Shown piece after piece: positions 460 to 43,640 of a stretch of 45,895 nucleotides of DNA. A model generated the notes under the pieces. The model ran no database searches. It was not told the origin of the DNA and was given only the letters and a program-made list of their open reading frames with translations. Numbering within the stretch: the stretch's first letter is position 1; the number at the start of each line of letters is the position of its first letter. The stretch lies in contig JAJDVM010000012.1 of NCBI GenBank assembly GCA_022826125.1, positions 1-45,895 on the forward strand, in the 5' to 3' direction. Origin of the DNA: Defluviicoccus sp. GTDB lineage: Bacteria > Pseudomonadota > Alphaproteobacteria > MPNO01. A program made the position numbers and the translations under genes.

Positions 460-1617
460 ATGGCCGAAATACGTCTCGGCGTAGCGATGAACGGCGTCAG
501 CGGCCGGATGGGCACCAACCAGCACCTGATCCGGTCGATCGCGAAGATACGCGCAGAAGGCGGGGTCGCGCTGAGCGATGGGCGGCGGATCGTCCCGGAC
601 CCGCTCTTCGTCGGGCGCAGCGAAGACAAGCTCGCGGCCCTCGCCGCCACCCACGGCTTCGACAAGTGGACGACCGATCTCGACGCGGCCATCCGGGACC
701 CCGACTATCCGCTGTTCTTCGATACCGCGAGCACCGTCCATCGTGCCGAAATCCTGCGCAAAGCCATAGACGCGGGCAAGCACATCTATTGCGAAAAGCC
801 GTCTGCCGCGACATTGGAGGACGCGCTCGACATATACCGGCGCGCCGAAAAGGCCGGCATCCGCCACGGCGTCGTGCAGGACAAGATCTTCCTGCCGGGC
901 CTGCTCAAGATGAAGCAACTGATCGACGACGGCGCGCTCGGCCGGCTGCTCTCGGTCAAGATCGATTTCGGCTACTGGGTGTTCGAGGGGGACTGGCGGC
1001 CGGCGCAGCGCCCGTCCTGGAACTACCGCAAGGCCGATGCCGGCGGGATCATCCTCGACATGATGCCGCACTGGCGCTACGTGCTCGACAACGTGTTCGG
1101 CAAGGTGCGGAGCGTGGTCTGCCGTGGCGCGATCAACTTCGACCGGCGCTGGGACGAGAACGACGAGCCCTACGACGCCGATGCGGACGACGGTTCCTGC
1201 GCGATGATCGAGCTCGACAATGGCGCGGTCGCGCAGATCTTCGCCTCCTGGTGCACGCGCGTGCGCAAGGACGACCTCGTGACCTTCCACGCCGACGGCG
1301 TCCTGGGCGCGGCTGTATCGGGGCTGACGCGCTGCTTCGTGCAGGACCGGGACGCCACGCCTTCTCCGGTCTGGAACCCCGACGAGCCGCAGACCATCGA
1401 CTTCTTCGGCACCTGGCAGGAGTATGGCGCCGACCTCTCCTTCGACAACGGGTTCAAGACCGAGTGGGAGATGTTCATCCGATCGCTCTACGACGACGGG
1501 CCGTTCACCTGGAACCTCCTGGAGGGCGCGAAGGGCGTTCAGCTCGCCGAGCGGGCGCTTCGGAGCTGGGAGGAGCGGCGCTGGATCGATGTCGAGCCGC
1601 TGGAGGCGGGCCCATGA
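460..1617 (+). CDS. Gfo/Idh/MocA-family NAD(P)-dependent oxidoreductase
   Basis: A 385-residue protein. An upstream in-frame start exists at 406, but ATG 460 has a good ribosome-binding site (GGGAGG, about 8 bases ahead) and puts the Rossmann motif at the true N terminus. Residues 7-18 (GVAMNGVSGRMG) form the dinucleotide-binding loop. E112-K113-P114 is the family's catalytic EKP motif, followed by the usual alpha/beta substrate domain. Members oxidise or reduce sugar, inositol and other cyclic polyol hydroxyls. It is the first gene of a seven-gene operon and overlaps the DUF993 gene by 4 bases (ATGA). A Gfo/Idh protein, a DUF993 protein and a sugar isomerase-like protein recur together in polyol cassettes. 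Here they precede ring-cleavage-type genes, which makes the substrate uncertain. Confidence 0.88.
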   Translation: MAEIRLGVAMNGVSGRMGTNQHLIRSIAKIRAEGGVALSDGRRIVPDPLFVGRSEDKLAALAATHGFDKWTTDLDAAIRDPDYPLFFDTASTVHRAEILRKAIDAGKHIYCEKPSAATLEDALDIYRRAEKAGIRHGVVQDKIFLPGLLKMKQLIDDGALGRLLSVKIDFGYWVFEGDWRPAQRPSWNYRKADAGGIILDMMPHWRYVLDNVFGKVRSVVCRGAINFDRRWDENDEPYDADADDGSCAMIELDNGAVAQIFASWCTRVRKDDLVTFHADGVLGAAVSGLTRCFVQDRDATPSPVWNPDEPQTIDFFGTWQEYGADLSFDNGFKTEWEMFIRSLYDDGPFTWNLLEGAKGVQLAERALRSWEERRWIDVEPLEAGP

Positions 1618-2780
1618 CGACCGTCGATCTGCCGACCGCCGACGGCAAGATACTGCCGTTCGAGATGAGCGCGCCGCGCATCTCGGCCGAACGACCGAAG
1701 CGTCCGTTCAACCGGATCGCATTCGCCGCCGCTCATGTCGTCGCCGACCCTCTCGCCGACAACGATCCGTGGATCGACCCCGCGATCGACTGGGAAGCGA
1801 CGCTCGCCTTCAGGCGCCACCTGTGGGCGCTCGGCCTCGGCGTGGCCGAAGCGATGGACACCGCCCAGCGCGGCATGGGGCTGGACTGGAACACCTCGCT
1901 CGAACTCATCCGCCGGAGCGTCGCGGAGGCGCGCGCGACGCCGGGCGCCGTGCTCGCCTCTGGCGCGGGCACGGACCACGTCGCGCCCGACCCGGACCTC
2001 GCGATCGAGGACGTCATCGCGGCATACGAGGAGCAATGCGGCGCGGTCGAGGAGGCCGGCGGTCGGATAATCCTGATGGCCTCGCGCGCCCTGGCCGCGG
2101 CCGCCAGGGAGCCGGAGGACTATCTCAGGGTCTACGACCGCATCCTGTCGCAGGTGTCGGAACCCGTCATCATCCACTGGCTGGGCGAGATGTTCGATCC
2201 CGCGCTGGCCGGCTATTGGGGCCACGACGACCACTGGGAAGCGATGGAAGTCTGTCTCGCCGTGCTCGAGGCCAATGCGGCGAAGGTGGACGGGATCAAG
2301 ATCTCGCTGCTCGACAAGGACAAGGAGATCGCGCTTCGCCGCCGCCTGCCGGACGGCGTTCGCATGTATACCGGCGACGACTTCAATTTCCCGGAACTGA
2401 TCGAGGGCGACGAAGAGGGCTATTCGGACGCGCTGCTCGGCATCTTCGATGCGATCGCGCCGGCGGCCTCGGCCGCGCTGGCGGCGCTTTCGGGAAACCG
2501 GCGGGAGGATTTCCGCGCCATCCTCGCCCCGACGCTGGAACTCTCGCGCCACATCTTCCGCGCGCCGACCCGGTTCTACAAGACGGGCGTCGTGTTCATG
2601 GCCTATCTCAACGGGCTGCAGGATCACTTCGTCATGGTCGGCGGGCAGCAAAGCGCGCGGTCCGCCGTCCACCTTGCCGAAATCTTCCGCCTCGCCGACC
2701 GGGCGGGCCTTCTCTCGGATTCGGAGCGCGCGGCGACCCGGATGCGGGACACCATGCGGCTGCACGGGATCGCCGCCTGA
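1614..2780 (+). CDS. DUF993 family protein, dihydrodipicolinate synthase/aldolase-like
   Basis: A 388-residue protein beginning at ATG 1614, which overlaps the preceding stop as ATGA and so suggests translational coupling. The sequence matches DUF993, a branch of the DapA/N-acetylneuraminate-lyase TIM-barrel superfamily. Lys229, in a GIKISLL strand, is the expected Schiff-base lysine. Family proteins are thought to be class I aldolases or dehydratases, but few have been tested. It is longer than DapA (about 290 residues), as is usual for DUF993. The next gene starts inside its stop codon (TGATG). The context suggests carbon-carbon cleavage or dehydration of the oxidised product of the upstream dehydrogenase; that is inference. 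Confidence 0.85.
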   Translation: MTTVDLPTADGKILPFEMSAPRISAERPKRPFNRIAFAAAHVVADPLADNDPWIDPAIDWEATLAFRRHLWALGLGVAEAMDTAQRGMGLDWNTSLELIRRSVAEARATPGAVLASGAGTDHVAPDPDLAIEDVIAAYEEQCGAVEEAGGRIILMASRALAAAAREPEDYLRVYDRILSQVSEPVIIHWLGEMFDPALAGYWGHDDHWEAMEVCLAVLEANAAKVDGIKISLLDKDKEIALRRRLPDGVRMYTGDDFNFPELIEGDEEGYSDALLGIFDAIAPAASAALAALSGNRREDFRAILAPTLELSRHIFRAPTRFYKTGVVFMAYLNGLQDHFVMVGGQQSARSAVHLAEIFRLADRAGLLSDSERAATRMRDTMRLHGIAA

Positions 2781-3601
2781 TGCCGGGCATCGAGAAGCTC
2801 GCGATCAACCAGGCCACCACGCGCGACCGATGGACGCTGCGCGAGGCGATCGAGGGCTATGCGCGCCACGGGGTGCGGGGGATTTGCGTCTGGCGGGACA
2901 AGCTTGCCGAATGCGGAGTGAGCCAAGCGGTAAGGCTGCTGAGCGATCACGGGATGACCGTGACGGGCCTGTGCCGGGGCGGCATGTTCGGCGGCGCCGA
3001 TGCGTCGACCTGGCGGGCAACGATCGACGACAATCTCAGGGCCATCGAGGAAGCTGCGGCGATCGGCGCGCGCACGCTGATAATGCTCGCGGGCGGTCTG
3101 CCAAAGGGATCGAAGGATCTTCCGGGCGCCCGCGCGCGCGTGGCGGAAGGCATCGCCGAAATCCTGCCGGCCGCGCGCGCCGCCGGCGTACCGCTCGCCA
3201 TCGAGCCGCTGCACCCGATGACCTGTGCCTCGCGCGGCTGCGTGACCACGCTGGGGCTCGCCAACGATCTCTGCGACGAGCTCGGAGAGGGCGTCGGCGT
3301 CGCGGTCGATGTCTACCACGTGTGGTGGGATCCGGCGCTCGACGCGGAGATCGCGCGGGCAGGCGACCGCATCCTCGCCTTCCATGTCAACGACTGGCTC
3401 CCCGACACCAGGGACCTGGTGTTCGACCGGGGCATGATGGGCGACGGGGTGGTCGACATCCCGCGCATCCGCCGCCTGGTGGAGCGAGCCGGCTATGACG
3501 GGATGAACGAGGTCGAGATATTCTCCGCCGAGAACTGGTGGAAGCGCGACCCCGACGAGGTGGTCGCGGTCTGTATCGAGCGCCACGAAACCGCGGTCTG
3601 A
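2780..3601 (+). CDS. Sugar phosphate isomerase/epimerase-like TIM-barrel protein
   Basis: A 273-residue AP-endonuclease-2 type TIM barrel starting at ATG 2780, one base inside the previous stop codon. Candidate metal ligands are E142 (IEPLHP), D177 and H180 (VDVYHVWW), H202 (FHVND) and E246 (NEVEIFS), spaced as in xylose-isomerase-like enzymes such as IolE, IolI and 3-dehydroshikimate dehydratase. The family covers epimerases, 2-keto-inositol dehydratases and dehydroshikimate dehydratases. Given the ring-opening enzymes downstream, a dehydratase producing an aromatic or enolic ring is an attractive alternative to sugar epimerisation. I cannot separate these from sequence alone. A 30-bp gap with a GGGGAGGAG ribosome-binding site precedes the next gene. 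Confidence 0.85.
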   Translation: MPGIEKLAINQATTRDRWTLREAIEGYARHGVRGICVWRDKLAECGVSQAVRLLSDHGMTVTGLCRGGMFGGADASTWRATIDDNLRAIEEAAAIGARTLIMLAGGLPKGSKDLPGARARVAEGIAEILPAARAAGVPLAIEPLHPMTCASRGCVTTLGLANDLCDELGEGVGVAVDVYHVWWDPALDAEIARAGDRILAFHVNDWLPDTRDLVFDRGMMGDGVVDIPRIRRLVERAGYDGMNEVEIFSAENWWKRDPDEVVAVCIERHETAV

Positions 3602-3631
3602 CGCGAAGGGCCGCAACGGGGAGGAGAACCC

Positions 3632-4765
3632 ATGGCGACCGTCGAACCGGCAACCGGCTCCAACCGGGACGCGCGCCTCGACGCGCTTTACGAGAGGCTG
3701 GACGCGCACGACATGGCGCCCTACTGGGCCGTCAGCACCGATACCGAGAACGACGAGGACGCGCAGATCTTGAAGGCGGGAAAGGCGCGGCCTTATGTAT
3801 GGAAATACAAGGACATAGAGCCGATTCTTTACGAAGCGGCGGAACTCGTCACCATGGACGATTCCGAGCGCCGGTCGGTCGTGCTGGTCAATCCCGGCCT
3901 CGCCCCGGTCCGCGCGACGGTGACGACGCTCTATACCGCCTACCGGCTCAACGACCCGCGCGAGATCATGCCGCCGCACCGCCATTCGATAAACGCCGTC
4001 AGGATCGGTCTCACCGGCGCCAGCAACTTCACCGGCGTCGAGGGCGAGAACATCGTCTTCGGGCCGGGCGATCTGGTGCTCACTCCGGCCGACGCGTGGC
4101 ACAACCACGGCAACCGGGGCGACGATTTCGCGGTCAATGTGAGCGTGCTCGACCTGCCGCTCACCGAAGTGCTGAACGCGGCGGGCTTCGAGCACCATTA
4201 CGAGGAGGACGGCGTCGCCAGGCGCGAGCAGACGGCGCGGTTCTCGGACGACTATTCGGCGCGGGTCTACGGCCAGGGCGGGCTGTTGCCCCGTTTCGTC
4301 GACCATGGGCGCGGCGCCGGACGGTCGTCGCCGATGTACGTCTATCGCTGGGACTCGACGCGCGAGCTGCTGGAGAAGTTCCGCGACCATGAGGGCAGCC
4401 CGTACGACGCGATCGCGGTCGAGTACACCGACCCGACGACCGGGCGGCCGCCCTACCCCACGATGACCTTCTTCGGCCAGCTCCTCAGGCCCGGCGAGCG
4501 CACCCGCCCGCAGCGCCAGAACGCGAGCCTGGTCTGTTTCCCGTTCGAGGGCAGCGGCCATTCCATCGTCGACGGCGAAAGGCTCGACTGGCAGCAATTC
4601 GACGCGATCGCGGTGCCCGGCAATTCGTGGTTCGAGCACGTCAACGGCTCGGACAGCGAGGACGCGATCCTGTTCGTGGTCAGCGACGAGCCGACGCTCT
4701 CGACGCTCGGCTTCCTCCGGCGCTTCGGCAGGACCGACTCCGGAGAAGTCGTGCGGCTGGTCTAG
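3632..4765 (+). CDS. Gentisate 1,2-dioxygenase-like bicupin
   Basis: A 377-residue double-cupin protein of the length expected for gentisate / 1-hydroxy-2-naphthoate / salicylate dioxygenases. The N-terminal cupin has the Fe(II) site: H116-R117-H118 followed by the A-V-R continuation typical of gentisate dioxygenase (HRHxxxAxR), and a later His in WHNHGN (H157/H159). A second cupin (residues about 240-365) lacks an equally clear metal triad, as in known family members. The start ATG 3632 is preceded by GGGGAGGAG. Such enzymes open monohydroxylated or dihydroxylated rings next to the hydroxyl to give pyruvate-type ketoacids, which suits the FAH-family hydrolase at 6485. The exact ring substrate is not determinable. 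Confidence 0.82.
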   Translation: MATVEPATGSNRDARLDALYERLDAHDMAPYWAVSTDTENDEDAQILKAGKARPYVWKYKDIEPILYEAAELVTMDDSERRSVVLVNPGLAPVRATVTTLYTAYRLNDPREIMPPHRHSINAVRIGLTGASNFTGVEGENIVFGPGDLVLTPADAWHNHGNRGDDFAVNVSVLDLPLTEVLNAAGFEHHYEEDGVARREQTARFSDDYSARVYGQGGLLPRFVDHGRGAGRSSPMYVYRWDSTRELLEKFRDHEGSPYDAIAVEYTDPTTGRPPYPTMTFFGQLLRPGERTRPQRQNASLVCFPFEGSGHSIVDGERLDWQQFDAIAVPGNSWFEHVNGSDSEDAILFVVSDEPTLSTLGFLRRFGRTDSGEVVRLV

Positions 4766-4838
4766 AGTCGATTGAAAGCGACTTCGGCGCGCGTATCATG
4801 ACGATGTCCACGACAGGCGCCGCACTGCGAGGTGTTCC

Positions 4839-5693
4839 ATGATCGAGCTGGTAGACATTCGCTATGTTCGGCTCGGCACGCGCGATGTCGACTCGGCGGT
4901 ACGGTTCGCGACCGAAACGCTCGGCCTCGAACTGGTCCGGCGCGAGAACGGCGCGGCCTACGTGCGGGGCGACGACCGCGACCACAACCTTTGCTATTTC
5001 GAGGGCGCGCCCGACGACCATACACTCGGCTTCGAGGTGGCGACCGGGGAGATGCTGGACCGGGCCGTCTCCGAGCTGGAAGCGGCCGGCGTCGAGGTCG
5101 CGCGGGGCACGCCGGAGGGCGCCGCCGACCGCAGGGTTACCGACTACATCAGCTTTCCGGATCCGACCGGCAACAATATCGACCTCGTGGTGCGCCCGTT
5201 CCACAGCGGCAAGCGCTATTTCCCGAGCCGCGACGCGGGAATCCAGGAATTTTCCCATGTCGGGCTCAAGACCACCGACGCGCCGCGCGACGAGGCGTTC
5301 TGGACGACGCATTTCAACATCCGCGCCAACGACTGGATCGGCGATGCGGCGCTGATGTCGTTCGACAAGGTGCATCACCGCCTCGCCCTCTTCCCGGCAA
5401 GCGAGCCCGGCGTGCAGCACATCAACTTCCAGGTCGAGAGCGTCGACGACATCATGCGCTCGCACTACTTCCTCACCGAGCGGCAGGTGCGGATCGTCTT
5501 CGGGCCGGGCCGGCACCCGACCTCGGGCGCCCGCTTCCTCTATTTCGAGGGGCCCGACGAGATGGTCTACGAATATTCCCACGGCGTGCGGCTGATCGAG
5601 GATCCCGACTACCGGCCGCGGCAATTCCCGTTCGACGACTCCTCGCTCTGCATGTGGGGCGCGAAGCCGGACATCGTGGAGTTCAAGAGCTGA
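4839..5693 (+). CDS. Type I extradiol ring-cleavage dioxygenase-like protein (two VOC modules)
   Basis: A 284-residue protein made of two vicinal-oxygen-chelate modules (about 1-120 and 132-265), the layout of BphC-type catechol 2,3-dioxygenases. The C-terminal module keeps the 2-His-1-carboxylate iron set: H140 (FSHVGL), H194 (GVQHINF) and E245 (MVYEYS). It also keeps second-shell residues: the H179-H180 pair in VHHRLAL, H226 in GRHP and Y244. This completeness argues for an active ring-cleaving enzyme rather than a glyoxalase relative. The start ATG 4839 lies 73 bp after the previous stop. The operon therefore carries two unrelated ring-opening folds (this one and the cupin at 3632). The substrate is unknown. 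Confidence 0.84.
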   Translation: MIELVDIRYVRLGTRDVDSAVRFATETLGLELVRRENGAAYVRGDDRDHNLCYFEGAPDDHTLGFEVATGEMLDRAVSELEAAGVEVARGTPEGAADRRVTDYISFPDPTGNNIDLVVRPFHSGKRYFPSRDAGIQEFSHVGLKTTDAPRDEAFWTTHFNIRANDWIGDAALMSFDKVHHRLALFPASEPGVQHINFQVESVDDIMRSHYFLTERQVRIVFGPGRHPTSGARFLYFEGPDEMVYEYSHGVRLIEDPDYRPRQFPFDDSSLCMWGAKPDIVEFKS

Positions 5694-5738
5694 CCGCCGG
5701 CGCGCGACAACAGGATTTGGGCGAACCGGGGGCGCTTC

Positions 5739-6443
5739 TTGGCTGAAACCGAATTCGGCGCGGTCGGAGAGCCGATCGAAGCGACGCAGATTCGCGTCCG
5801 CAAGGCGGCGCGGGCGCTCGCGCGGCACGATCTCGGCCACGCCTACGGCCATGTCAGCGCCAGGCTCGACGACGAGCGGTTCCTGGTCTGCGCGGCCAGG
5901 CCGATGGGGCTGATCGGCCCCGGCGAGCCCGGCAGCGTGGTGCCCGTCGAGGGCGCGTTGCCGGACGGCGTTCTCGGCGAGGTGCGCTGCCACCAGCAGA
6001 TCTACCGCCGCCGGCCGGACGTGAACGGCATCTGCCGGACCTTCCTGCGCGAGACGATGACGCTCTCCACCTTCCGGCGGGTGCCGCGCGCGCGGCACGG
6101 TTTCGGAACCTACTTCGCGCCCGGACCGGCCCTTTGGGACGATCCGGCCTTGCTGCGCTCGGACGAGGCGGCGGCGGCGCTCGCCGAATGCCTGGGCGAA
6201 TCGCGCGCGGTGGTCATGCGGGGCAACGGCGTTATCCTGACCGGCGCCACCGTCGAGGAAAGCATCGTGATGGCCTTCTATCTCGAGGAGGCCGCGCGAA
6301 CCGAGCTTGCCGTTATGGCGGTCGGCGACAATGCGGAATCGGTCGAGATACCGCTCGATGAAGCAAGGGCCCGGGCAACCAGCACGGGCCGGATTTTCGA
6401 GAGGATGTGGGATTACCTGACCGACGGGGATCCCGAAAACTAG
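5739..6443 (+). CDS. Class II aldolase/adducin-family protein with altered metal site
   Basis: A 234-residue protein read from TTG 5739, which has a purine-rich GGGGG stretch just upstream; no ATG lies near the domain start. The fold signature is clear: GHVSARL, LIGPG, a VRCHQQIYRRRPDVNG stretch and a RGNGVILTG segment. In canonical members the third block ends in a zinc-binding His-x-His and the last block reads RxHG. Here these are C99-R100-T101 and N163, so three expected zinc ligands are absent. It may be a non-zinc or catalytically divergent member, as some decarboxylase and hydrolase-like relatives are. Its operon position suggests it processes a ring-opened intermediate. Family call firm, chemistry open. 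Confidence 0.75.
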   Translation: MAETEFGAVGEPIEATQIRVRKAARALARHDLGHAYGHVSARLDDERFLVCAARPMGLIGPGEPGSVVPVEGALPDGVLGEVRCHQQIYRRRPDVNGICRTFLRETMTLSTFRRVPRARHGFGTYFAPGPALWDDPALLRSDEAAAALAECLGESRAVVMRGNGVILTGATVEESIVMAFYLEEAARTELAVMAVGDNAESVEIPLDEARARATSTGRIFERMWDYLTDGDPEN

Positions 6444-6484
6444 CCGGCCGCGACAGCGTCCGGCGCAACATCGGGGAGACGGAT

Positions 6485-7351
6485 ATGCGTCTGGTGAGTT
6501 TCAAGAAGGGTCGCGGCAGCGCCATCGGCGTGCGTACCGACGACGGCATCGTGGATCTTTCGGTTGCCGACGAGAGCCTGCCGGGGGACATGATCGGGCT
6601 GCTGAGCGGGGGCGACAGGGCGCTCGCGCGAGCGGCGCGGGCGGCACGGAAGCCGCCGGAAGGCTCGGTGATCAAGCGGCGCGTCAACCACCTGCCGCCG
6701 GTCCCCAACCCGGGCAAGGTGATCTGCGTCGGGCTGAATTACAGCGACCACGCGGCGGAGGCCGGCATGAAGCCGCCGGACTATCCCGTCCTGTTCCTGC
6801 GCACCCCGGCCTCGCTGGTGGGCCACGGCCAGCCCATCCTGCGGCCCAAGGCGTCGAAGCATCACGACTACGAGGCCGAGCTCGTCGCGGTCATCGGCAA
6901 GCCGGGCCGCCGCATCGCCAAGGCGCGGGCGCTGGATCACGTCGCGGGCTACTCGATCGCCAACGAGGGATCGATCCGCGACTACCAGCTGAAGACCTCG
7001 CAGTGGATGATCGGCAAGAGCTTCGATGCGTCCGGCTCGTTCGGCCCGGAGATCGTCACGCCCGACGAGCTGCCCAACAAGGGCGCGAAGGGGCTGAAGA
7101 TCGAGGCGCGGCTGAACGGCGAGACGCTGCAATCCTCGACCACGTCGTCGATGATTTTCGACGTGGCGACGCTGGTCAACGAATGCAGCAAGATCTTCGC
7201 TCTGGAGACCGGCGACATCATCGTCACCGGCACCCCGGCGGGGGTCGGGTTCGTGCGCAAGCCGCCGATCTTCATGACCCCGGGAGACACCTGCGAGATC
7301 GAAATCGAAGGGATCGGCGTGCTGTCGAACCCGATCGAGCGGGAAAAGTAG
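6485..7351 (+). CDS. Fumarylacetoacetate hydrolase (FAH) family protein
   Basis: A 288-residue FAH-fold protein. ATG 6485, with GGGGAG ahead, is preferred over an earlier in-frame ATG at 6407 because the domain begins at MRLVSF. The metal-binding block HHDYEAELVAVIGK (mid-protein) supplies Glu ligands. It is followed by SIRDYQLKTSQWMIGKSFD with the usual Asp and Lys, and by a C-terminal TGTPAGVGF turn. Homologues hydrolyse acylpyruvates, isomerise or hydrate ring-fission products, or decarboxylate oxaloacetate. As the last gene of the operon it is the natural step after cleavage by either dioxygenase. It ends 33 bp before a convergent lipoprotein gene. Confidence 0.87.
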   Translation: MRLVSFKKGRGSAIGVRTDDGIVDLSVADESLPGDMIGLLSGGDRALARAARAARKPPEGSVIKRRVNHLPPVPNPGKVICVGLNYSDHAAEAGMKPPDYPVLFLRTPASLVGHGQPILRPKASKHHDYEAELVAVIGKPGRRIAKARALDHVAGYSIANEGSIRDYQLKTSQWMIGKSFDASGSFGPEIVTPDELPNKGAKGLKIEARLNGETLQSSTTSSMIFDVATLVNECSKIFALETGDIIVTGTPAGVGFVRKPPIFMTPGDTCEIEIEGIGVLSNPIEREK

Positions 7352-7680: not shown

Positions 7681-7709
7681 GAATTAGGGACGCCCCGGCC
7701 TTGCGTCAA
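7681..7709 (-). promoter_or_regulatory. Sigma-70-type promoter for the lipoprotein gene
   Basis: On the minus strand TTGACG (7709-7704) and TAATTC (7686-7681) are separated by 17 bases, 35 bases ahead of the lipoprotein ATG. The -35 box overlaps the last codons of the upstream gene (stop at 7706). Confidence 0.5.
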
Positions 7710-8689
7710 CGCGGCCGCATGCCGACCCCGTGCCCCTTGTTGACGAAGCGGAGATCGAACGCCGACAGGTGGTCCATCTCCGCCGGGTAGACGCCGGCGC
7801 GAACCATCGCCTCGAAGAACGCCGTGAGCCTTTCCGCCGTCATGGCGCCGATGCCGAGCTTCAGCGCATCGCCCGAATCGACGATGCCGTGCTCCTTCAT
7901 CTTGGCGATTCCGTAGGCGATCAGCGCATCGGGCATGTCGGGGTTCGTCTTCTTGATGAGGCGGTTGCCGGGCCCGGGATCGCGGTAAAGGTAGCTGTAC
8001 CAGCCTTCGATCGACGCGTTCAGGAAGCGTTGCACGACCGAGGGCTTGCCCGCCGCGAGCTCCCTGGAAACGGTCACCAGGGTGGAATAGGCCGGCCAGC
8101 CGGTATCGGCGATCAGGAACACCTTCGCCTTGACGCCTTCCCGCAGCGCCATGAAGGGCTCGGAGGTGACATATCCCTGCTGGATCGCGTCCTCGTTCAC
8201 CAGGAAGGGCGCGAGGTTGAAGGTGTAGCGCCGGATCTGGCTCTCGTCGAACCCGAAGCGCAGCTCGAAGAAGCGCCACCAGGTATCGCGGGCATCGGCC
8301 GAGATCATGATCGGCCGGCCCTTCATCCCCGGGATCGAGCGGATCGCGGAACCGGGATGGGTCAAGAGGACCTGCGGATCCTTCTGGAAGAACGCGGCGA
8401 CGGTGACCATCGGGATGTCGTTCTTGAGAAAGTTGAGCCCCTCGGCGTTGTTGCTGATCATCGCCGCATCGAGCGCCCCGGCGGCGAGCAGCTGGTTGTG
8501 GTTAACCTGCGGCCCGCCCTCGCGGATCGTCACGTCGAGCCCGTACTTCGCGTAACGGCCCTCGGCCAGCGCCTGGTAGAAGCCGCCGTGCTCGGCCTCC
8601 GCCTTCCAGTTGGTGCCGAAGACGAACTTCTCCGCCGCCTGCGCCGTCGATACGAGGCACAGGGCGGCAAGCAGCGCGATCGCCCTCAT
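7706..8689 (-). CDS. ABC transporter substrate-binding protein, NMT1/SsuA/THI5-like
   Basis: A 327-residue periplasmic protein. The start is set at ATG 8689, where an 18-residue signal peptide (MRAIALLAALCLVSTAQA) begins; the longer frame upstream to 8839 is ruled out because it precedes this signal. The mature part has the NMT1/SsuA pattern (YAKYGLDVTIREGG, LLAAGALDAAMIS, YPAEMDHLSAFD), known for binding nitrate, taurine, alkanesulfonates, thiamine precursors and some aromatic acids. It starts 13 bp after the monooxygenase-like gene, so it is probably cotranscribed with it and with the UbiD gene. No permease or ATPase is adjacent; the importer at 24495-26881 has no binding protein of its own and is a plausible partner. 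Confidence 0.85.
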   Translation of the reverse strand: MRAIALLAALCLVSTAQAAEKFVFGTNWKAEAEHGGFYQALAEGRYAKYGLDVTIREGGPQVNHNQLLAAGALDAAMISNNAEGLNFLKNDIPMVTVAAFFQKDPQVLLTHPGSAIRSIPGMKGRPIMISADARDTWWRFFELRFGFDESQIRRYTFNLAPFLVNEDAIQQGYVTSEPFMALREGVKAKVFLIADTGWPAYSTLVTVSRELAAGKPSVVQRFLNASIEGWYSYLYRDPGPGNRLIKKTNPDMPDALIAYGIAKMKEHGIVDSGDALKLGIGAMTAERLTAFFEAMVRAGVYPAEMDHLSAFDLRFVNKGHGVGMRPR

Positions 8690-8702
8690 CGTCGGCGGTC
8701 CT

Positions 8703-9881
8703 TCACAGACGCGGATCGACGGAGGGCAGTCCGAACCGGATCCGCCCGGCATTGGTCGCCTGCATGTCCCAGGCCTGGGTGATCTGCTGTCCCACCGCGT
8801 GCACGTCCCGCCACGCCCGCATGAACGGGTTCGCCGCATCCAGCCCGCGCGCGCCGAGGAGCGGGTAGAGCCGTTCGACCGCGCGAATCGAGAGCTGCGT
8901 CGCGTAGGCGTTGTTGAGCCGCCAGCGGGCGCGCTGTTCCAGCTCCGGGTGGACGTCCCGTTCGGCGAAGTCGGTCGCCTCCTCGCTCACCTGGATGAGC
9001 AGCGCCTTCGCCGCGTCGATTTCGGCATTGGCCTCGGCGACCCGGGCCTGCGCGGTGGGAAGCTCGGCGAGCTTGACCCCGACCACGCCCACCCTGTCCT
9101 TGAACTCGTTCTCCACGTAGTCGAGCGCGCCGCGCGCGATCCCGACCGCGGGGGCCGAGAAGATCTGGGTTCCGGCCGACCAGATGGAAATCTGGTAGAG
9201 CGGCGCCGAGTTGATGTCCCGGCTGAGGCCCTTGCCGCCGGACAGGACGCCCGCGGCCACCGTCCGGTAATTCGGGACGAACACCTCGTTCAGCCGCACC
9301 GACTTGCTGCCCGTCGCCAGCAAACCGGTCGCGTTCCAGTCGTCGACGACCTCGAACGAGCCCTTGGGGATCAGCGCGAAGCGGGGTTCGGGCGGTCCGT
9401 CCTCCCGAGGCACGAAGACCTGGAGGTGGAGCCAGTCCGCGAAATCGACGCCGCTGGAGAAGCTCCACAACCCGTCGAGCACGATGCCGTCCCCGACAGG
9501 CGTGGCGGTTCCTCCACTGACCGAGAGCCCCGAGGCGATCAGCGCCTCCGGATTGGCGCCCCACACGTCGTCCTGCGCCTCGCGGCAGTTCATCGAGAGC
9601 ACCAGGCTCTGCGCCACCAGGTTGGTGAAGATCCAGGCGCTCGACCCGCAGCCTCGGCCGAGCTCGCCGGCGATGTCGATGATGGCCCGGTTCTCGCACT
9701 CCATCCCGCCATAGCGCCGGGGCTGGAAGATCCGGTAGAGACCGGCCTCAAGGAAATCCCGATGGGTCGAGTCCGGGATACGGCGCAGCGCGTCCGCCTC
9801 CTTCTGGCGTTCGAGCAGCGCCGGCACCATCGCCGCCGCCTTCGCGGTCAGCGACTCGCGCTGGCTTCCATCCGGTGCCAT
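8703..9881 (-). CDS. Acyl-CoA dehydrogenase-fold flavin monooxygenase-like protein
   Basis: A 392-residue protein of the acyl-CoA dehydrogenase fold. The residues and length fit group D flavin monooxygenase oxygenase components (HsaA, HpaB-C2, DszC type) better than true dehydrogenases. An N-terminal helical domain has LYRIFQPRRYGGME. The middle beta domain holds GLWSFSSGVDFADW, the W-x-F/S-S-G motif typical of this branch, and a TGLLATGSKSVRLNEVFVP segment follows. These enzymes use reduced flavin supplied by a separate reductase; none is seen nearby. It lies 16 bp after the UbiD gene in an operon, suggesting hydroxylation of an aromatic or heterocycle linked to decarboxylation. A simple acyl-CoA dehydrogenase remains possible. 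Confidence 0.75.
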   Translation of the reverse strand: MAPDGSQRESLTAKAAAMVPALLERQKEADALRRIPDSTHRDFLEAGLYRIFQPRRYGGMECENRAIIDIAGELGRGCGSSAWIFTNLVAQSLVLSMNCREAQDDVWGANPEALIASGLSVSGGTATPVGDGIVLDGLWSFSSGVDFADWLHLQVFVPREDGPPEPRFALIPKGSFEVVDDWNATGLLATGSKSVRLNEVFVPNYRTVAAGVLSGGKGLSRDINSAPLYQISIWSAGTQIFSAPAVGIARGALDYVENEFKDRVGVVGVKLAELPTAQARVAEANAEIDAAKALLIQVSEEATDFAERDVHPELEQRARWRLNNAYATQLSIRAVERLYPLLGARGLDAANPFMRAWRDVHAVGQQITQAWDMQATNAGRIRFGLPSVDPRL

Positions 9882-9897
9882 GTGATCCTCCTCGTCT

Positions 9898-11532
9898 CTA
9901 CCCGTCCTGCTCCACGTCGCGCACCGACGTCTCGGGCACCAGCCCGGACCGCTGGCGCTGCAGGGTGCGCCGGCCGTTTTCGAGATACTGCCCGTCCGCG
10001 GCGCGCTTCGCCGCCTGTTCCCAGCCGTCGGACCAGTCGCCGAGAGAATAGCCGTGCCACGGCGACTCGGGCTTGAGCCTGGGCAGGCCGAGCCGTTCCC
10101 AGAGCGCCTTCGCGCCTTCCATGTACTCCCGCGTGGGCAGCGCCAGGGGCGGCATCGGCGACTTCATCGTGGCGTCGATCAGCAGGGTCGAGTCTTCCTC
10201 GCCCTTGTGCTCCCGCTTGGGTCCGTGGCCCTGCCCGCGATGCGGCAGGGCCGTCACGTCCTCGACCGGGTTGTGGCGATAGGCCATCGCCCAGAGCAGC
10301 GCGTCCGCGTTGTCGGGATCGATGTCGTCGTTGACCGCGATGCAGATCTTGCTGCAATCGCCCTTGAAGCTCGCCGCGCCGTAGAGCGCCCGCCACACCT
10401 CGGTGCGCGGCGCTCCCCGTTCCAGCGTGACGATCGTCACCCGCAACAGCCCGGTCAACTTCTCGTGCAGCGAAACGCCAGTGACCGCCTTGATCCCGAG
10501 GGCGTCGCGGAGGTGGCCCAGGAACAACGGCTCGTAGGCGACCCGTTTGATGACGCTCGATTCGGACGGCGCGACCTGGCTGATATAGGAGGGGATCACC
10601 GGTTTCGCCTTGCGGGTGATCGCGGTGACCCGCATCGGCATGTTGAACTCTTCCAGCGCGACATGGCCGTGGCTCTCGCCGAACGGGCCCTCGGGCTCCA
10701 GCATGCCGGTGTCGATGACCCCCTCGATCACCAGCTCGGCCTCGGCCGGAACCAGCAGGTCCACCGTCTTGCCGCGCACCACGTTGATCGGCTCTCCCGC
10801 GAGCCCTCCGGCGACGTCGAACTCGTCCAGGTCGATCCGGAGCTTCTGCGGCCCCATGAAGGCGACCAGCGGAGGACAGCCGAGGACGATAGCGCAGGGC
10901 AGCTCCTCGCCCTTCGCCTTGTGCTTCTTCCAGTGCACGTAACCGCCGGCGCCGCCCACCCGGGTCGCCATCCGGACCACCAGCCGGTCGGGCGCCTTCA
11001 GCGCGGCGCGATAGGTTCCCATGTTCTGCACGCCGGTCTCGGGGTCGCGGGTGATCACGTTGGTCGCCGCCAGCGTCGGCGCGCTGTCGAAGCCGGGCGT
11101 CGAGATCGGGATGGGCAACGCATCGAGCCCGTTCCCCTCGCCGAGCAATTCGTCGCCCTCGATCACGACCTCCTGACAGGGCGCGGTGTTGACCCGGCGG
11201 GGCGGTACCGGCTCGGCGAGGGCGCGGTCCCACTTGCCCGGGATCTCGTCGACCGTCGCCTGCATGCCGACGCTGTAGACCGCGCGGTTGGCCGCGAGCG
11301 CGCCGATCACCACCGGGATGTCGTAGCGGCGGTCCAGGCTGTCGGTCACGTTGCGGAACAGGAAGGCGCGGCGCTCGTCCTCGTCGAGCCCGCCGCGAAA
11401 CTGCCAGCGCACCAGCGGCACCATCTCGGTGTCCTTGTTGACCGGCTCGTCCACGGTCAACAGCAGCCCGGCGGACTCGAGGGCTTCGAGATGTTCCTGC
11501 AAATCGGAGTAGCCGCGGTTCGCGCCCGCCAT
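9898..11532 (-). CDS. UbiD-family (de)carboxylase
   Basis: A 544-residue UbiD/Fdc1-type protein. ATG 11532 has GGGGAG just ahead and begins the conserved N-terminal domain; the open frame continues upstream to 11661 but without homology. The catalytic set is intact: R175 in NMGTYR, and E281 and E286 in EGPFGE. These correspond to the Arg-Glu-Glu triad that works with prenylated FMN in Fdc1. Such enzymes reversibly decarboxylate aromatic, heteroaromatic or unsaturated acids. The cofactor needs UbiX, which is not in this window. The gene sits between a cupin gene (89 bp upstream) and the flavin monooxygenase-like gene, suggesting decarboxylation coupled to hydroxylation. Family call firm; substrate unknown. 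Confidence 0.92.
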   Translation of the reverse strand: MAGANRGYSDLQEHLEALESAGLLLTVDEPVNKDTEMVPLVRWQFRGGLDEDERRAFLFRNVTDSLDRRYDIPVVIGALAANRAVYSVGMQATVDEIPGKWDRALAEPVPPRRVNTAPCQEVVIEGDELLGEGNGLDALPIPISTPGFDSAPTLAATNVITRDPETGVQNMGTYRAALKAPDRLVVRMATRVGGAGGYVHWKKHKAKGEELPCAIVLGCPPLVAFMGPQKLRIDLDEFDVAGGLAGEPINVVRGKTVDLLVPAEAELVIEGVIDTGMLEPEGPFGESHGHVALEEFNMPMRVTAITRKAKPVIPSYISQVAPSESSVIKRVAYEPLFLGHLRDALGIKAVTGVSLHEKLTGLLRVTIVTLERGAPRTEVWRALYGAASFKGDCSKICIAVNDDIDPDNADALLWAMAYRHNPVEDVTALPHRGQGHGPKREHKGEEDSTLLIDATMKSPMPPLALPTREYMEGAKALWERLGLPRLKPESPWHGYSLGDWSDGWEQAAKRAADGQYLENGRRTLQRQRSGLVPETSVRDVEQDG

Positions 11533-11621
11533 GGACGATTCTCCCCTTACAACGGCGGTCGCGCCGCGCGGCGGCATGATGCCACCGCGCGATCGCCCGG
11601 CCAATGGGAGCGACGGCGCCG

Positions 11622-12059
11622 TTACCCCGCGGCGTCGACCAGCACGGCGGCGAACCGGCACGGCCCGTCGCCGGTATTGCGCCAGGCGTGGTTGGTGCCG
11701 CGCTGCACGAGGCAGTCGCCGGGGCGGAGCGGAATCTCGGTGTCGTCGAGGACCAGGTTCATCTCGCCTTCGATCATCACCACGTAATCGATGGTCGCCG
11801 TCCGGTGCATCTCGAGCTCCTGGTCGGGCTGGAGCTCGAGAACGCGGAAGATGGTTCCGCCGCCCGGGGGCGGACGGCCGACCTGTCGCGCGCCGGCGTC
11901 CTCGTTACCCCGGTTGGGCGGCGTTTCGCCGTCGGTGGTCCAGATCAGGCGCGAATCGTGGCCGTGTCGCCTGGATGTCGCGTTGGCCGCGATGTCGTCG
12001 ACGATCGCGACCGATTTCCCGCTCTCGTCGTGCCCGGTGACCACCCGTCTTACCTGCAT
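11622..12059 (-). CDS. Single-domain cupin protein
   Basis: A 145-residue cupin. Residues about 75-130 show the barrel with a sparse metal motif: LQPDQELEMHRTATIDYVVMIEGEM carries only one clear His and a Glu in the first half, and GDCLVQRGTNHAWRN supplies the second-half His. It resembles the cupin-2 proteins that accompany aromatic and isomerase pathways. It is the first gene of the minus-strand group containing the UbiD and monooxygenase-like genes, and it is divergent from another cupin-like gene at 12124 across 64 bp. Enzymatic or sensing roles cannot be distinguished. Confidence 0.75.
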   Translation of the reverse strand: MQVRRVVTGHDESGKSVAIVDDIAANATSRRHGHDSRLIWTTDGETPPNRGNEDAGARQVGRPPPGGGTIFRVLELQPDQELEMHRTATIDYVVMIEGEMNLVLDDTEIPLRPGDCLVQRGTNHAWRNTGDGPCRFAAVLVDAAG

Positions 12060-24386: not shown

Positions 24387-24494
24387 ACGACGCGCGGTCG
24401 CGTTGGGTCGCGGCGGTGTGGTATGGAGGGGGGATACACTCGCCCGGCGCGCTGTGCGATATTGGGCGGTTCGCGGAGCAATAGGGCGCTCTCC

Positions 24495-25268
24495 ATGAAG
24501 GACCTGGTCCTGTTCAAGCCCGGCTTCCTGCCGGGGCTGGTGACGGTGATCGCCGCCATTATCCTTTGGCAGCTGATTTCCCTCCTCTTCCTGCCGGTGT
24601 TCCTGCCCGGCCCGCTGGTCCTGCTCGACCGGGTTATCGAGGTCTACGGCCAGGCCGAGACCTATCTGGTGGTCTGGCAGACGGTCTCGCGGATCTTCCA
24701 GGGGCTGGTTCTCTCGATGCTGATCGGGACCGCGATCGGCCTCGTCATGGGGCTCAGGCGCGACCTGGAAGCGTTCCTCGACAGCTGGATCATGGTGCTG
24801 CTGACTTTCCCGGCGATCTGCTGGGCGTTCCTGGCGGTGCTCTGGTTCGGCCTGTCCGAGATCGCGCCGCTGCTGACCGTTCTGCTGATCGTCTTCCCTT
24901 TCGTTTCGATGAACGTCTGGGAAGGCACCAAGGCGGTCGAGAAGGCCCTGATCGACATGGCCCATGTCTACCGCGCGAACCGCCGGCTGGTGATCCAGAA
25001 GGTGATCATCCCGCAGCTCATGCCCTACCTGTTCTCGGCGCTCCGCATCGCGCTCTCGCTGTCGTGGAAGATCGTTCTCGTCGGCGAGGCGTTCGGGGTG
25101 GCGAGCGGCGTGGGCCAGCGGCTGGTCTTCTGGTTCGAGGACACCCGCGTCGACATGATGCTGGCCTGGGGCATCAGCTTCATGGTCATCATGACCATCA
25201 TCGATCTGCTGATTTTCCGCCTGTGGGAAAAGCGCACATTCGTCTGGAGGCACAAATTTGCAACCTGA
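24495..25268 (+). CDS. ABC transporter permease, SsuC/TauC-like (first of two)
   Basis: A 257-residue inner-membrane protein with about six hydrophobic helices. ATG 24495 follows the end of a long open leader and starts the first membrane segment ([16 protein letters not shown]). The cytoplasmic EAA-type loop is present in the [31 protein letters not shown] region, which docks the ATPase. The family imports nitrate, sulfonates, taurine or aromatic acids. It overlaps the ATPase gene by 11 bases. A second, distinct permease gene follows the ATPase, suggesting a heterodimeric channel. No binding protein is encoded in this operon. Confidence 0.87.
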
Positions 25269-26097
25269 CCAAGCAACCGTAACCCTGGGGGAGGCCGGGC
25301 CCGACCGGGCGACGGTCGTCTCCGTCGACAATCTGACCAAGCGCTTCAACGTCCCCGGCGGCGAAGAGAAGTTCGTGGTCCTGGACGCGATCAGCCTCAA
25401 GGTGCACGAAGGCAGCTTCGCCGCCATCGTCGGCCCCTCGGGCTGCGGGAAATCGACGCTGCTCAACATCATCTCGGGCATCGAGACCCACGACCCCAGC
25501 GACGGCGGGTCGGTCACCGTCCATCCCCGGGCGGGCGAAGGCGGCGAGCCGCGCATCGGCTACGTCTTCCAGAGCGCGCGGCTGCTCAACTGGCTCACCG
25601 TCGAGGGCAATCTCCAGTTCGCCCTGGAGGCGCAGCAGATTCCGCGCGGCGTCTGGGGCGAGAGGGTGTCCAAATACCTGGAAATGGTCGGCCTCGCCGG
25701 GCAGGAGAAGAACTACCCGCTCAACCTGTCGGGCGGGATGCAGCAGCGCGTCGCGATCGCTCGCGCGCTCGCGATCGAGCCCGATATCCTGCTGATGGAC
25801 GAGCCGTTCAGCCATCTCGACGAGATCACCGCGCGCAAGATGCGCTTCGACCTGATGGACATCCTGGCGCGCGCCAAGACGACGATCCTGTTCGTCACTC
25901 ACGACCTCGGCGAGGCGGTGTTCCTGTCCGACCACATCTACATGATGAGCACCAAGCCGGCGCGCATCTTCAAGCGGGTCGACGTCGACGTGCCGCGGCC
26001 GCGCAAGCCGGAGGACCCGCAGATCTTCGACATGGAGAAGGAGCTCGTGCGGGAGTTCTTCAGCGTGCTCGACGCCGACGCGATCGCGGAGGGCTAG
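25258..26097 (+). CDS. ABC transporter ATP-binding protein, SsuB/TauB/NrtD-like
   Basis: A 279-residue ATPase read from TTG 25258, inside the end of the permease gene. All motifs are intact: Walker [11 protein letters not shown]-loop VFQSARLL, signature LSGGMQQR, Walker B LLMDEP, D-loop SHLD and the switch His in VTHDLGEA. The [11 protein letters not shown] segment after the His is typical of nitrate/sulfonate importers. It energises the two flanking permeases at the cytoplasmic face. The weak TTG start within the upstream gene implies translational coupling. Confidence 0.92.
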
Positions 26098-26098
26098 G

Positions 26099-26881
26099 AT
26101 GAGCTCGAAATGGAAAGCGGTCGGGCTGCGGGCGGGCTCGATCGTCGTCCTGGTCGTCATCTGGTGGATCACCGCCCTCTGGATGGGCGACGAGACCGTG
26201 CTGCCCGGACCGGTGCTGATCGGCGCCACCATCCTCGCCAACCTGGCGTCGCTCGGCCCCGAGGGTCACACGGCCTTCTTCCACATCGGCATCTCGCTCG
26301 CGCGCATCTTCGTCACCTTCGCGGCGGCGATGCTGCTCGGCATCGGCATCGGGCTGGGCATGGGCCTGCGCAAGCTTTTCGAGCATTCGCTGCTCGCGCT
26401 GATCCCGCTCGCGCTCACCATGCCGACCATCCTGATGGTGTTCCTCGCCGTTCTCTGGTTCGGCTTCAACGAGGTCGGCAGCCTGGTCGCGGTGATCGGC
26501 GTGGTGACGCCGTTCGTGGCGGTCAACATCTTCGAGGGCGCCAAGGCGATGGACAAGTCGCTGATCGACATGGCGAAGTCCTTCAAGGCCGACCGCCGGG
26601 CGCTGATCCGCAAGGTCTACCTGCCGCAGCTCATGCCCTACATCTTCTCGGCGTTCCGCTTCTCCTTCGGGATGACCTGGAAGATCGTCGCGCTGGCCGA
26701 GACCTTCGGCATCAAGTTCGGCATCGGCTACATGTTCTTCTTCTGGTTCGAGCAGTTCAGCATGGAGCAGGTGCTGGCCTGGGTGATCCTGTTCGTGATC
26801 CTGATGCTGATCCTCGAGCACGGCGTATTCGCGAGGCTGGAGCACCGCGCCTTCCGCTGGCGCCCGTCGCATTCGAATTAG
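26099..26881 (+). CDS. ABC transporter permease, SsuC/TauC-like (second)
   Basis: A 260-residue membrane protein starting one base after the ATPase stop. It has the same architecture as the first permease, with about six helices and the EAA-type loop in KSLIDMAKSFKADRRALIRKVYLPQLMPYIFS; that loop closely matches the first permease, so the pair arose by duplication. The heterodimer with the 24495 product would form the channel. A copy of the palindromic repeat begins 8 bp after the stop and may shape the mRNA 3' end. Confidence 0.88.
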   Translation: MSSKWKAVGLRAGSIVVLVVIWWITALWMGDETVLPGPVLIGATILANLASLGPEGHTAFFHIGISLARIFVTFAAAMLLGIGIGLGMGLRKLFEHSLLALIPLALTMPTILMVFLAVLWFGFNEVGSLVAVIGVVTPFVAVNIFEGAKAMDKSLIDMAKSFKADRRALIRKVYLPQLMPYIFSAFRFSFGMTWKIVALAETFGIKFGIGYMFFFWFEQFSMEQVLAWVILFVILMLILEHGVFARLEHRAFRWRPSHSN

Positions 26882-26888
26882 GGGGGCG

Positions 26889-26989
26889 CCCCTCGATACG
26901 GCGCTGGCGCGCCTACTCGGGATGAGGGGGTGGTTGCCCGCTTCGTTCTACCCTCACCCTGAGCAGCGGCGAAGCCGCGTATCGAAGGG
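26889..26989. repeat. Intergenic palindrome, copy 2
   Basis: Inverted arms at 26889-26928 and 26951-26989. The left hairpin is GGCGCTGGCGCGCC; the right arm, read in the same orientation, has GCGGCTTCGCCGC. It lacks the MITE terminal repeats and sits between a permease stop (26881) and a convergent gene end (27010). Confidence 0.85.
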
Positions 26990-27009
26990 CGCTCGAACCG
27001 AATCCGCCC

Positions 27010-28245
27010 CTACGCCGCTGCGCGCATCTCCGGCGGGCAGACGTCGCGCAGGAGGCGGCGGTCGGGGGCGATCTCCCTGCCCTCGCGGAACACCGTCCCG
27101 GGCACCAGCCGGCGGTCGACGACGAGCTCCTCGCCCATCGAATCGGTCAGCGCCCAGCACCCCTCGGCAAGGTCGAGGATCGTGAGGTCCGCGCGGCTGC
27201 CGGGCGCCAGCGTGCCGATCTCGTTTTCCTCGCCCAGGATCAGGGCCGGATTGAGCGTCGCCCTCTTCACGACATCGGCCAGGTCCATGCCGAGCGCCCA
27301 CAGCTTCGACATCGCCCCGCACAGGCTGTAGTCGAGCCTGGAATCGTCGTGATAGGCGTGGAAGTCGGAATGCACGTCGCTCGATATCGTGTTGGGCAGC
27401 ACGCCTTCCGCCATCATCCGGCGCGCGATGTCGAACGAGAAATTGACCCCGTGGCCGATGTCGAAATGAATGCCGCGGTCCAGCGCCTCGTGGACGATCC
27501 GGGGCACCTCGCCGCCCGCCCCCATGATTCCGTCCGGCATGGTGCTGTAGACATGGGCGAGCGTGGTGCCGGGGTTGAGCGCCGGCACCACCTGCTCCAG
27601 CACGCCCGCGGGATCGGGGCGGTTGGTCTCGTCGACGGGGAACAGCTCGCCGGTATGGACGTAGAGCGGGAGCCCGGTCCGCTCGCCGGCCTCGACCGCC
27701 ATCTTCAGGACTTCGAGCCCCCAGTGAGAGAGCCCGCCCGATTCGCCGTGGCTCTTGATCCCCTTGACCAGACGGGGATACGCGGCGGCGGCCTCGGCGA
27801 TCGCCTCGATGCGCATCATGCCCGGGTTGTGGAGCGTGGTGCCCTCCATCCCGCCCTTGAGCGCGCCGGCCAGGTTGGCGGAGACGAAGGCCCTCACGTC
27901 GGTCTCGGCGGGTTGCGCGATATAGGCGTCGAACCCGCCGACGGTCCATGCGCCCGAGCTCCCCTGGTCGACGATCGTGGTGGCGCCCGAATGCACCCCC
28001 GCCTCGTCCGGATGGAGGCCGAAATTGGTCACCCACTCGTAGACATGGACGTGGAAGTCGATCAGCCCGGGGCAGACCGTCTTGCCGCGCGCGTCGATCC
28101 GCCGCCCCGCGCTGTGGGGCGGCAGTTCCGGCGCGAACGCCGCGATCCTGCCGTCCGCGATTCCGATCTGGGCGGGCCCGCGATAGTCGCTGCCCGGGTC
28201 GACCGCGTCGTCGCAGTCCATGACGAGATCGTAGGCTTCGGTCAC
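27010..28245 (-). CDS. Amidohydrolase/deacetylase-family metallohydrolase
   Basis: A 411-residue amidohydrolase-superfamily protein, nearest in pattern to dihydroorotase-like deacetylases. Metal-site features: HVHVYE after the GLIDF strand, a likely carboxylated Lys in KGIKSHGESGG, His in YVHTGE, His in LAHVYST, and Asp in SSDVHSDFH. The C terminus returns to the composite beta domain (GSRADLTILDL). These enzymes hydrolyse cyclic amides, hydantoin-like rings or N-acyl groups. It starts 4 bp after the VOC gene and ends the minus-strand operon running from about 32674. The exact amide is unknown. Confidence 0.85.
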   Translation of the reverse strand: MTEAYDLVMDCDDAVDPGSDYRGPAQIGIADGRIAAFAPELPPHSAGRRIDARGKTVCPGLIDFHVHVYEWVTNFGLHPDEAGVHSGATTIVDQGSSGAWTVGGFDAYIAQPAETDVRAFVSANLAGALKGGMEGTTLHNPGMMRIEAIAEAAAAYPRLVKGIKSHGESGGLSHWGLEVLKMAVEAGERTGLPLYVHTGELFPVDETNRPDPAGVLEQVVPALNPGTTLAHVYSTMPDGIMGAGGEVPRIVHEALDRGIHFDIGHGVNFSFDIARRMMAEGVLPNTISSDVHSDFHAYHDDSRLDYSLCGAMSKLWALGMDLADVVKRATLNPALILGEENEIGTLAPGSRADLTILDLAEGCWALTDSMGEELVVDRRLVPGTVFREGREIAPDRRLLRDVCPPEMRAAA

Positions 28246-28249
28246 GGAT

Positions 28250-28681: not shown

Positions 28682-28757
28682 GACTAGTCTCCCGTTGGCG
28701 GGGCGATGCTCTCAACCCGGCGGGAGGGAGTCAACGATTTGCGCCCCGGCCGCCGCC

Positions 28758-30161: not shown

Positions 30162-30172
30162 TGCGTTCGCCT

Positions 30173-43479: not shown

Positions 43480-43610
43480 TGCGGCCACTGATACCCGCCC
43501 CCGCGGCGCCCGTCTACCGCGTCCGGGGGGTTGAGATGCCCCGGCGCCGCGCTCGACCGATCGAGAGACCGGCGGACCGCCTCTCGCTTCGCTGGGAATC
43601 GTCGAGGCCG

Positions 43611-43640
43611 TTGCCGATATATCACCCAATGGGCTATATT
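43611..43640 (+). promoter_or_regulatory. Promoter and operator candidate of the higBA remnant
   Basis: TTGCCG (43611-43616) and TATATT (43635-43640) are 18 apart. Between and over them is an imperfect inverted repeat centred on CCCAATGGG, flanked by ATAT on both sides (43617-43640), a plausible HigA binding site in an AT-rich patch. Confidence 0.55.

Follow-up and report, generated by a model that had tools for sequence, protein, structure and literature searches.

A run of seven catabolic genes lies at one end of the 45,895-nucleotide stretch of Defluviicoccus sp. DNA analyzed here (contig JAJDVM010000012.1, assembly GCA_022826125.1; hereafter, the window), whose first base is base 1 of the contig. 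The initial annotation had read these genes, at positions 460-7351, as one operon in which a polyol-type cassette is joined to ring-opening enzymes. Our analysis makes it likely that these genes form two catabolic transcription units lying side by side. Unit A (460-4765) encodes a Gfo/Idh/MocA-family oxidoreductase, a DUF993 protein, a xylose-isomerase-like protein (XylI) and a cupin, while unit B would comprise a promoter-like site (4772-4799) and the genes (4839-7351) for an extradiol dioxygenase, a class II aldolase-fold protein (gene 6) and an FAH-family hydrolase. This reading draws on gene content, residues, predicted fold, conservation, a recurring promoter-like site and the context of relatives, from which we infer substrates, reactions and promoter activity. 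Two units are preferred because the extradiol gene is common without DUF993 in the taxonomic order of the window genome, the DUF993 module occurs elsewhere without ring-cleavage genes, and a promoter-like site lies inside the set; the seven genes are probably not one pathway.

Gene content, conservation and a probable internal boundary

All seven open reading frames are open, intact and on the plus strand, with a coding-like third-position GC content of 0.86-0.92, and profile searches with Pfam agree with the family names first given to the seven proteins. The first gene of unit A (460..1617) encodes the 385-aa Gfo/Idh/MocA protein (PF22725, PF02894 and PF01408), which has lysine K113 in a CEKP motif. 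It is followed by DUF993 (388 aa from the ATG at 1614; 1614..2780; PF06187, 618 bits) and XylI, a 273-aa TIM-barrel protein (2780..3601, ATG at 2780; PF01261). The short overlaps of 1-4 bases reported between these three genes were borne out, measuring 4 bases at 1614-1617 and 1 base at 2780. Farther downstream, gaps of 30, 73, 45 and 41 bp separate XylI, a 377-aa gentisate 1,2-dioxygenase-like double cupin (3632..4765; PF07883), a 284-aa type I (VOC) extradiol ring-cleavage dioxygenase (4839..5693; PF00903), the 234-aa product of gene 6 (5739..6443; PF00596) and the 288-aa FAH-family hydrolase (6485..7351; PF01557, 237 bits).

This seven-gene set is real and inherited, yet loose beyond the genus. 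The genes are kept together and in the same order in 5/5 genomes of the genus (the window genome and four sister species), with orthologs that are 87-97% identical and similar gaps of 24-95 bp; the FAH gene of one sister species (G001) falls beyond its contig end. The genome-neighborhood check that had been proposed thus found the set in every genus member and, with extra genes in between, in three genomes (L119, L121 and L122) from a different family of the order, where TetR, Gfo/Idh, DUF993, XylI, an LVIVD-repeat protein, the cupin, an antisense GT4-like gene, the extradiol gene and the gene 6 ortholog follow one another, the GT4-like gene splitting cupin from extradiol. Elsewhere the arrangement comes apart. 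G005 has an opposite-strand EamA-like gene between XylI and cupin, with the extradiol gene and gene 6 ortholog on a separate contig; G008 has the cupin, extradiol, gene 6 ortholog and FAH genes without the Gfo/Idh-DUF993-XylI module; and G018 has the module, the cupin ortholog and the extradiol pair each on a contig of its own.

The probable boundary between the units is marked by the sequence TTGAAA-16-TATCAT at 4772-4799 on the plus strand, which is the best sigma-70-like sequence (10/12) in 8 kb. In 5/5 genus members the two hexamers (TTGAAA or TTGAAC) are retained at the same spacing, while the bases between them vary. Moreover, 17 of 19 loci of the order have a TATCAT in the 100 bp ahead of the extradiol gene, against 0.33 expected from shuffles, which ignore relatedness, and a TTG usually precedes it at the right distance. 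It recurs there even though spacers and downstream leaders differ widely, and it was found 0 or 1 times upstream of each of the other five genes tested. Judging from these patterns, unit B has its own promoter-like site, and one promoter for all seven genes is less likely because of it, although read-through from unit A into unit B may occur. The initial annotation had said that two operons with separate promoters, together with no co-occurrence in other genomes, would tell against its proposal; the conserved site makes separate promoters probable, whereas the set does co-occur.

The distribution of the two halves points the same way. Extradiol orthologs are found in 23/27 genomes of the order and in 11/11 of those of best quality, DUF993 in 11/27. 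Outside the order, a DUF993 scan of named genomes brought up 593 related stretches; the best 80 were examined. Gfo/Idh and XylI genes stand near DUF993 in the same order in most of these 80 loci, while homologues of the window's four ring-cleavage genes were near it in 0/80 (E 1e-10), a count that could miss rarer combinations beyond the best 80 of 593. The extradiol gene without the module in many genomes of the order, and the module elsewhere without ring-cleavage genes, argue against the single operon and pathway first proposed.

The DUF993 module and the cupin attached to it

Unit A is more likely a widespread sugar- or polyol-type module. In the 80 loci outside the order, DUF993 is 61-76% identical to the window protein, and Gfo/Idh and XylI are about 48-66% identical. 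Recurrent neighbors are a TetR regulator, NMT1-/TctC-type or sugar transporters and a mandelate-racemase-like protein; the Sinorhizobium locus has a carbohydrate-ABC/TetR/Gfo context. The rhizobial module, with its relatives of SMc04132 and SMc04130, thus has the same three genes in the same order as the window but is linked to TetR, transporters and the mandelate-racemase-like gene, not to ring-cleavage genes. The protein annotated "mandelate racemase" in Sinorhizobium (L186) adjoins the module in 44 of the 80 loci (e.g., L033:9913-11358); one member had no Pfam match, and another had no sequence match to any solved structure.

Each protein of the module has a full-length relative of solved structure: 3oqb for Gfo/Idh (E 3e-155), annotated merely "Oxidoreductase"; 4dnh, the uncharacterized SMc04132, for DUF993; and 3ju2 (SMc04130) and 3qc0, with no assigned function, for XylI. 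The literature searched on DUF993, the SMc0413x genes and the solved structures yielded no functional account, only regulation data (PMC12542648).

The predicted DUF993 structure (pLDDT 88.7) matches the fold of 4dnh and then those of dihydrodipicolinate synthase, N-acetylneuraminate lyase, a keto-deoxy-sugar-acid dehydratase and PhdJ. Its residue K228 (numbered from codon 2), in strand 6 (224-230), is invariant in 28 sequences. The Schiff-base lysine of the DapA/NAL superfamily sits at strand 6, and K228, as placed from strand order in the model, would correspond to that position. With a predicted TIM barrel and a conserved strand-6 lysine, DUF993 appears to fit this class I aldolase superfamily, and its reaction would be on a keto-sugar or keto-polyol. 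In the route that we propose, Gfo/Idh would convert a hydroxyl of a sugar or polyol into a ketone, XylI would isomerize or dehydrate the ketone product with a divalent metal, for which E143, D178, H203 and E247 are the candidate ligands, and DUF993 would cleave or dehydrate the keto compound via a Schiff base on K228. The earlier idea that a cyclic polyol is oxidized and dehydrated to a phenol is unsupported, no evidence for it having been found.

Known routes were compared with the module and set aside. Both myo-inositol and levoglucosan catabolism resemble it in starting with a Gfo/Idh step on a polyol or sugar ring, but the window protein lies far under both curated cut-offs, scoring 70.7 bits against 355 for the IolG model TIGR04380 and 72 bits against 650 for the LgdA model. 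XylI had no inosose-dehydratase match among curated models. The Gfo/Idh protein is also a distant relative of DgpA, which acts in C-glycoside breakdown; C-glycoside deglycosylation was rejected in turn, the set having no DgpB-like protein and XylI no sequence match to a solved DgpC.

In this lineage, a gentisate-type cupin dioxygenase would be attached to unit A. Ortholog alignment shows a conserved first-domain iron site (H116 and H118, with H157 or H159) and conserved R80, R81 and R124. This iron site, the arginines and the nearby FAH-family gene are reminiscent of the gentisate pathway. The cupin, however, is under the curated NCBIfam cut-offs (213 bits against 442 for the gentisate dioxygenase model TIGR02272; 229 against 650 for the 5-aminosalicylate dioxygenase model), and there is no maleylpyruvate isomerase within the window set. 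Gentisate-dioxygenase-like cupins are multiplied in the window's family, with 7-10 matches per genome (the window genome, G000, and its relatives G001-G005), and aromatic catabolism looks like a main occupation of the lineage. An LVIVD-repeat protein of ~372 aa stands near the cupin, XylI or extradiol gene in several genomes of the order (L117, L119-L123, L163 and L165); in the window's genus it is encoded elsewhere, the homologue in the window genome (G000:C304:15982-17100) being near other aromatic genes.

The ring-cleavage unit and its aldolase-fold protein

As for unit B, it is more likely of a known kind, resembling the cmt/dhb-type meta-cleavage units in its complete 2-His-1-Glu extradiol enzyme and the adjoining class II aldolase-fold gene. 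The initial annotation had credited the extradiol protein with all iron ligands, and rightly so: H140, H194 and E245 are present, as are the second-shell residues H179/H180, H226 and Y235, all conserved in orthologs. Its closest curated models are BphC, HpaD and C23O, with none at cut-off.

Relatives of the extradiol/gene 6 pair, about 51-61% identical, sit in evident aromatic meta-cleavage operons. The window extradiol is 59% identical to that of a complete meta-cleavage operon on Caballeronia plasmid p3, whose order (alpha/beta hydrolase, extradiol, class II aldolase, FAH-family hydratase, acetaldehyde dehydrogenase, 4-hydroxy-2-oxovalerate (HOV) aldolase, Rieske alpha/beta, ferredoxin, PdxA and reductase) is close to cmtA-H. 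Plasmid pTM2 of Tistrella mobilis has a TRAP transporter, two VOC proteins, a class II aldolase, a 2-hydroxymuconic semialdehyde (HMS) dehydrogenase, an FAH-family protein and an HpaI-type aldolase, and Cupriavidus has the extradiol gene, a gene 6 relative, an HMS dehydrogenase, two hydratases, an acetaldehyde dehydrogenase and an HOV aldolase. In the genus of T. mobilis (G187), a second VOC protein is encoded upstream of the extradiol gene (L159:7479-8372), with LQSVQL for FSHVGL; having apparently lost the first iron-ligand histidine, it is possibly a degenerate partner.

In the p-cumate pathway, CmtC cleaves a carboxylated ring, whose fission product CmtD then decarboxylates (PMC5224996). 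In Pseudomonas reinekei MT1, the type I extradiol enzyme DhbA is followed by the class II aldolase DhbB, which reportedly takes part in the decarboxylation of the ring-fission product (PMC6362003). The window pair resembles the cmt operon of Pseudomonas putida F1 and Burkholderia xenovorans LB400, in which an extradiol enzyme is paired with a ring-fission-product decarboxylase of ~244 aa, and its relatives lie within a cmt-like operon on the Caballeronia plasmid. However, the window set has no Rieske oxygenase, dihydrodiol dehydrogenase, alpha/beta hydrolase, hydratase or aldolase, and has an FAH hydrolase instead. The dhb pathway for 2,3-dihydroxybenzoate shares the extradiol enzyme and class II aldolase, and an HMS dehydrogenase homologue follows the relatives of the window pair in Cupriavidus and Tistrella; it differs in that the lower-pathway genes of the window genome are on another contig. 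The claim that no named pathway has this set holds in part: a literature search for the exact gene combination found no paper, but the extradiol/aldolase-fold pair is the cmt/dhb pairing.

Class II aldolases bind their metal via a His-x-His motif and a third histidine. The description of gene 6 as a relative of these enzymes holds for the fold and for E81, which is kept, while R100-T-F102 and N163 replace the His-x-His and the third histidine. No aligned ortholog has a histidine at any of the three positions, which are also lost in relatives from alpha- and betaproteobacteria (Tistrella, Caballeronia, Cupriavidus, Novosphingobium, Sphingopyxis and Sphingobium) and from Streptomyces, the third position always reading RGNG. 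Because the metal ligands are missing, gene 6 is unlikely to carry out the aldol cleavage first attributed to it. A polar set (H34, H38, R42, E81, R83, H85, R100, R161 and N163) is nevertheless invariant in 15 proteins that are 55-95% identical to the window protein, and the best fold match of the model (pLDDT 88.6, from a shallow alignment of 15) is 2z7b, a hydroxymethylpyridine-dicarboxylate decarboxylase. Since gene 6 has the position of CmtD and DhbB and its predicted fold matches a decarboxylase, it most likely encodes, by analogy, a ring-fission-product decarboxylase rather than an aldolase. What is new here, apart from DUF993, is a decarboxylase-like subfamily of the class II aldolase fold without metal ligands, which may decarboxylate metal-free, use another metal site or have a non-catalytic role. 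That gene 6 encodes a partner of the extradiol dioxygenase with no catalysis of its own, or an isomerase, is a less probable alternative, one that gains from the loss of all three histidines, the close pairing with the extradiol gene and a Tistrella operon that shows no separately annotated tautomerase or decarboxylase, but loses to an invariant polar set as in an active enzyme, to the position of the reported decarboxylases and to the fold match.

The FAH protein conserves H89, E130, E132 and E161 (D to E at the third acidic site) in the ortholog alignment, and is under the cut-off of every curated equivalog; its solved relatives include FAH-family hydrolases and HpcE-type decarboxylase/isomerases. 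Lower meta-pathway genes are absent from the seven-gene set. Homologues that are 34-71% identical occur together on contig C187 of the window genome, including an HMS dehydrogenase (57%), an HOV aldolase (71%), an acetaldehyde dehydrogenase (66%) and hydratases. Hydratases ~33% identical elsewhere in the order were not accepted as orthologs. In a decarboxylating route of the cmt/dhb type, the extradiol enzyme would open a carboxylate-bearing catechol, gene 6 would release the carboxylate of the ring-fission product as CO2, and the decarboxylated product would then be handled either by the FAH protein or by C187's dehydrogenase-hydratase-aldolase set.

Alternative readings, surrounding genes and significance

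Several observations weigh against two separate units. In each of the five genus members the seven genes stay together, separated by no more than 95 bp, and a scan of the 8-kb region showed nothing resembling a terminator between the units. The gentisate-type cupin beside the module is not explained. Its ortholog is present in 10/11 genomes with DUF993 and in 3/16 without (Fisher P 0.0003, kinship ignored); no other statistical association between a ring-cleavage enzyme and the polyol module was seen. Within unit B, the loss of ligands in gene 6 does not fit what is known of class II aldolase-fold chemistry, and the 288-aa FAH protein did not match the hydratase (261 aa) encoded in the cmt-like operon of the plasmid.

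Some of these observations would suit a composite substrate, with unit A acting on the sugar or cyclitol moiety of an aromatic conjugate, such as a phenolic glycoside, and unit B and the cupin taking the aglycone. We regard this as improbable. The juxtaposition is conserved in the genus and partly in another family, the DgpA kinship of Gfo/Idh would be in keeping with it, and so would the co-occurrence of DUF993 and cupin. But the set has no glycosidase, neither the Pfam assignments of the seven proteins nor the solved relatives of XylI include a DgpB/DgpC-like partner, the other loci of the module have no nearby aromatic genes of such kind, and nearly every genome of the order has the extradiol gene, in many cases without unit A. 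No more probable is the fuller version of a composite molecule, in which DUF993, as a keto-polyol/keto-sugar lyase, would break an alicyclic or sugar part with Gfo/Idh and XylI, and degradation of the aromatic part would fall to the cupin, the extradiol enzyme and a metal-independent decarboxylase of the class II aldolase fold, together an undescribed combined pathway. Very unlikely is one seven-gene operon for one pathway, in which a cyclic polyol is oxidized and dehydrated to a phenol that then undergoes ring cleavage, hydrolysis and aldol cleavage: tight co-directional packing in five species and the missing terminator-like site speak for it, but the extradiol gene often occurs without DUF993 in the order, unit A has no ring-cleavage genes nearby elsewhere, the internal promoter-like site recurs and gene 6 has no aldolase metal ligands.

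Other genes surround the two units. Upstream of Gfo/Idh, a divergent gene at 2-445, kept in the genus and complete at 286 aa in L115:13432-14292, had no Pfam or NCBIfam match. Downstream, genes at 7706-12059, convergent with the set, encode an NMT1-type binding protein, an HsaA-like oxygenase, a UbiD-type decarboxylase and a small cupin; they lie beside FAH in L115 and are unmatched in L112 and L114, so an extension of the operon into them was rejected and they were treated as separate. Farther along, ABC permeases with an ATPase, an amidohydrolase, a small VOC protein and a second UbiD-family decarboxylase are close together at 24423-30671, and the alpha and beta subunits of a Rieske ring-hydroxylating dioxygenase (PF00848, PF00355 and PF00866) at 41705-43629 are a possible dihydrodiol source for catechol formation.

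The two-unit reading recasts a vague "new pathway" as two testable units, of which the DUF993 module and the ligand-less decarboxylase-like subfamily deserve follow-up. DUF993 and its two partners occur in hundreds of bacterial loci and all have solved relatives, which makes substrate screening directly possible. The gene 6 subfamily sits at a known decarboxylation position and may show the class II aldolase fold decarboxylating without its usual metal.

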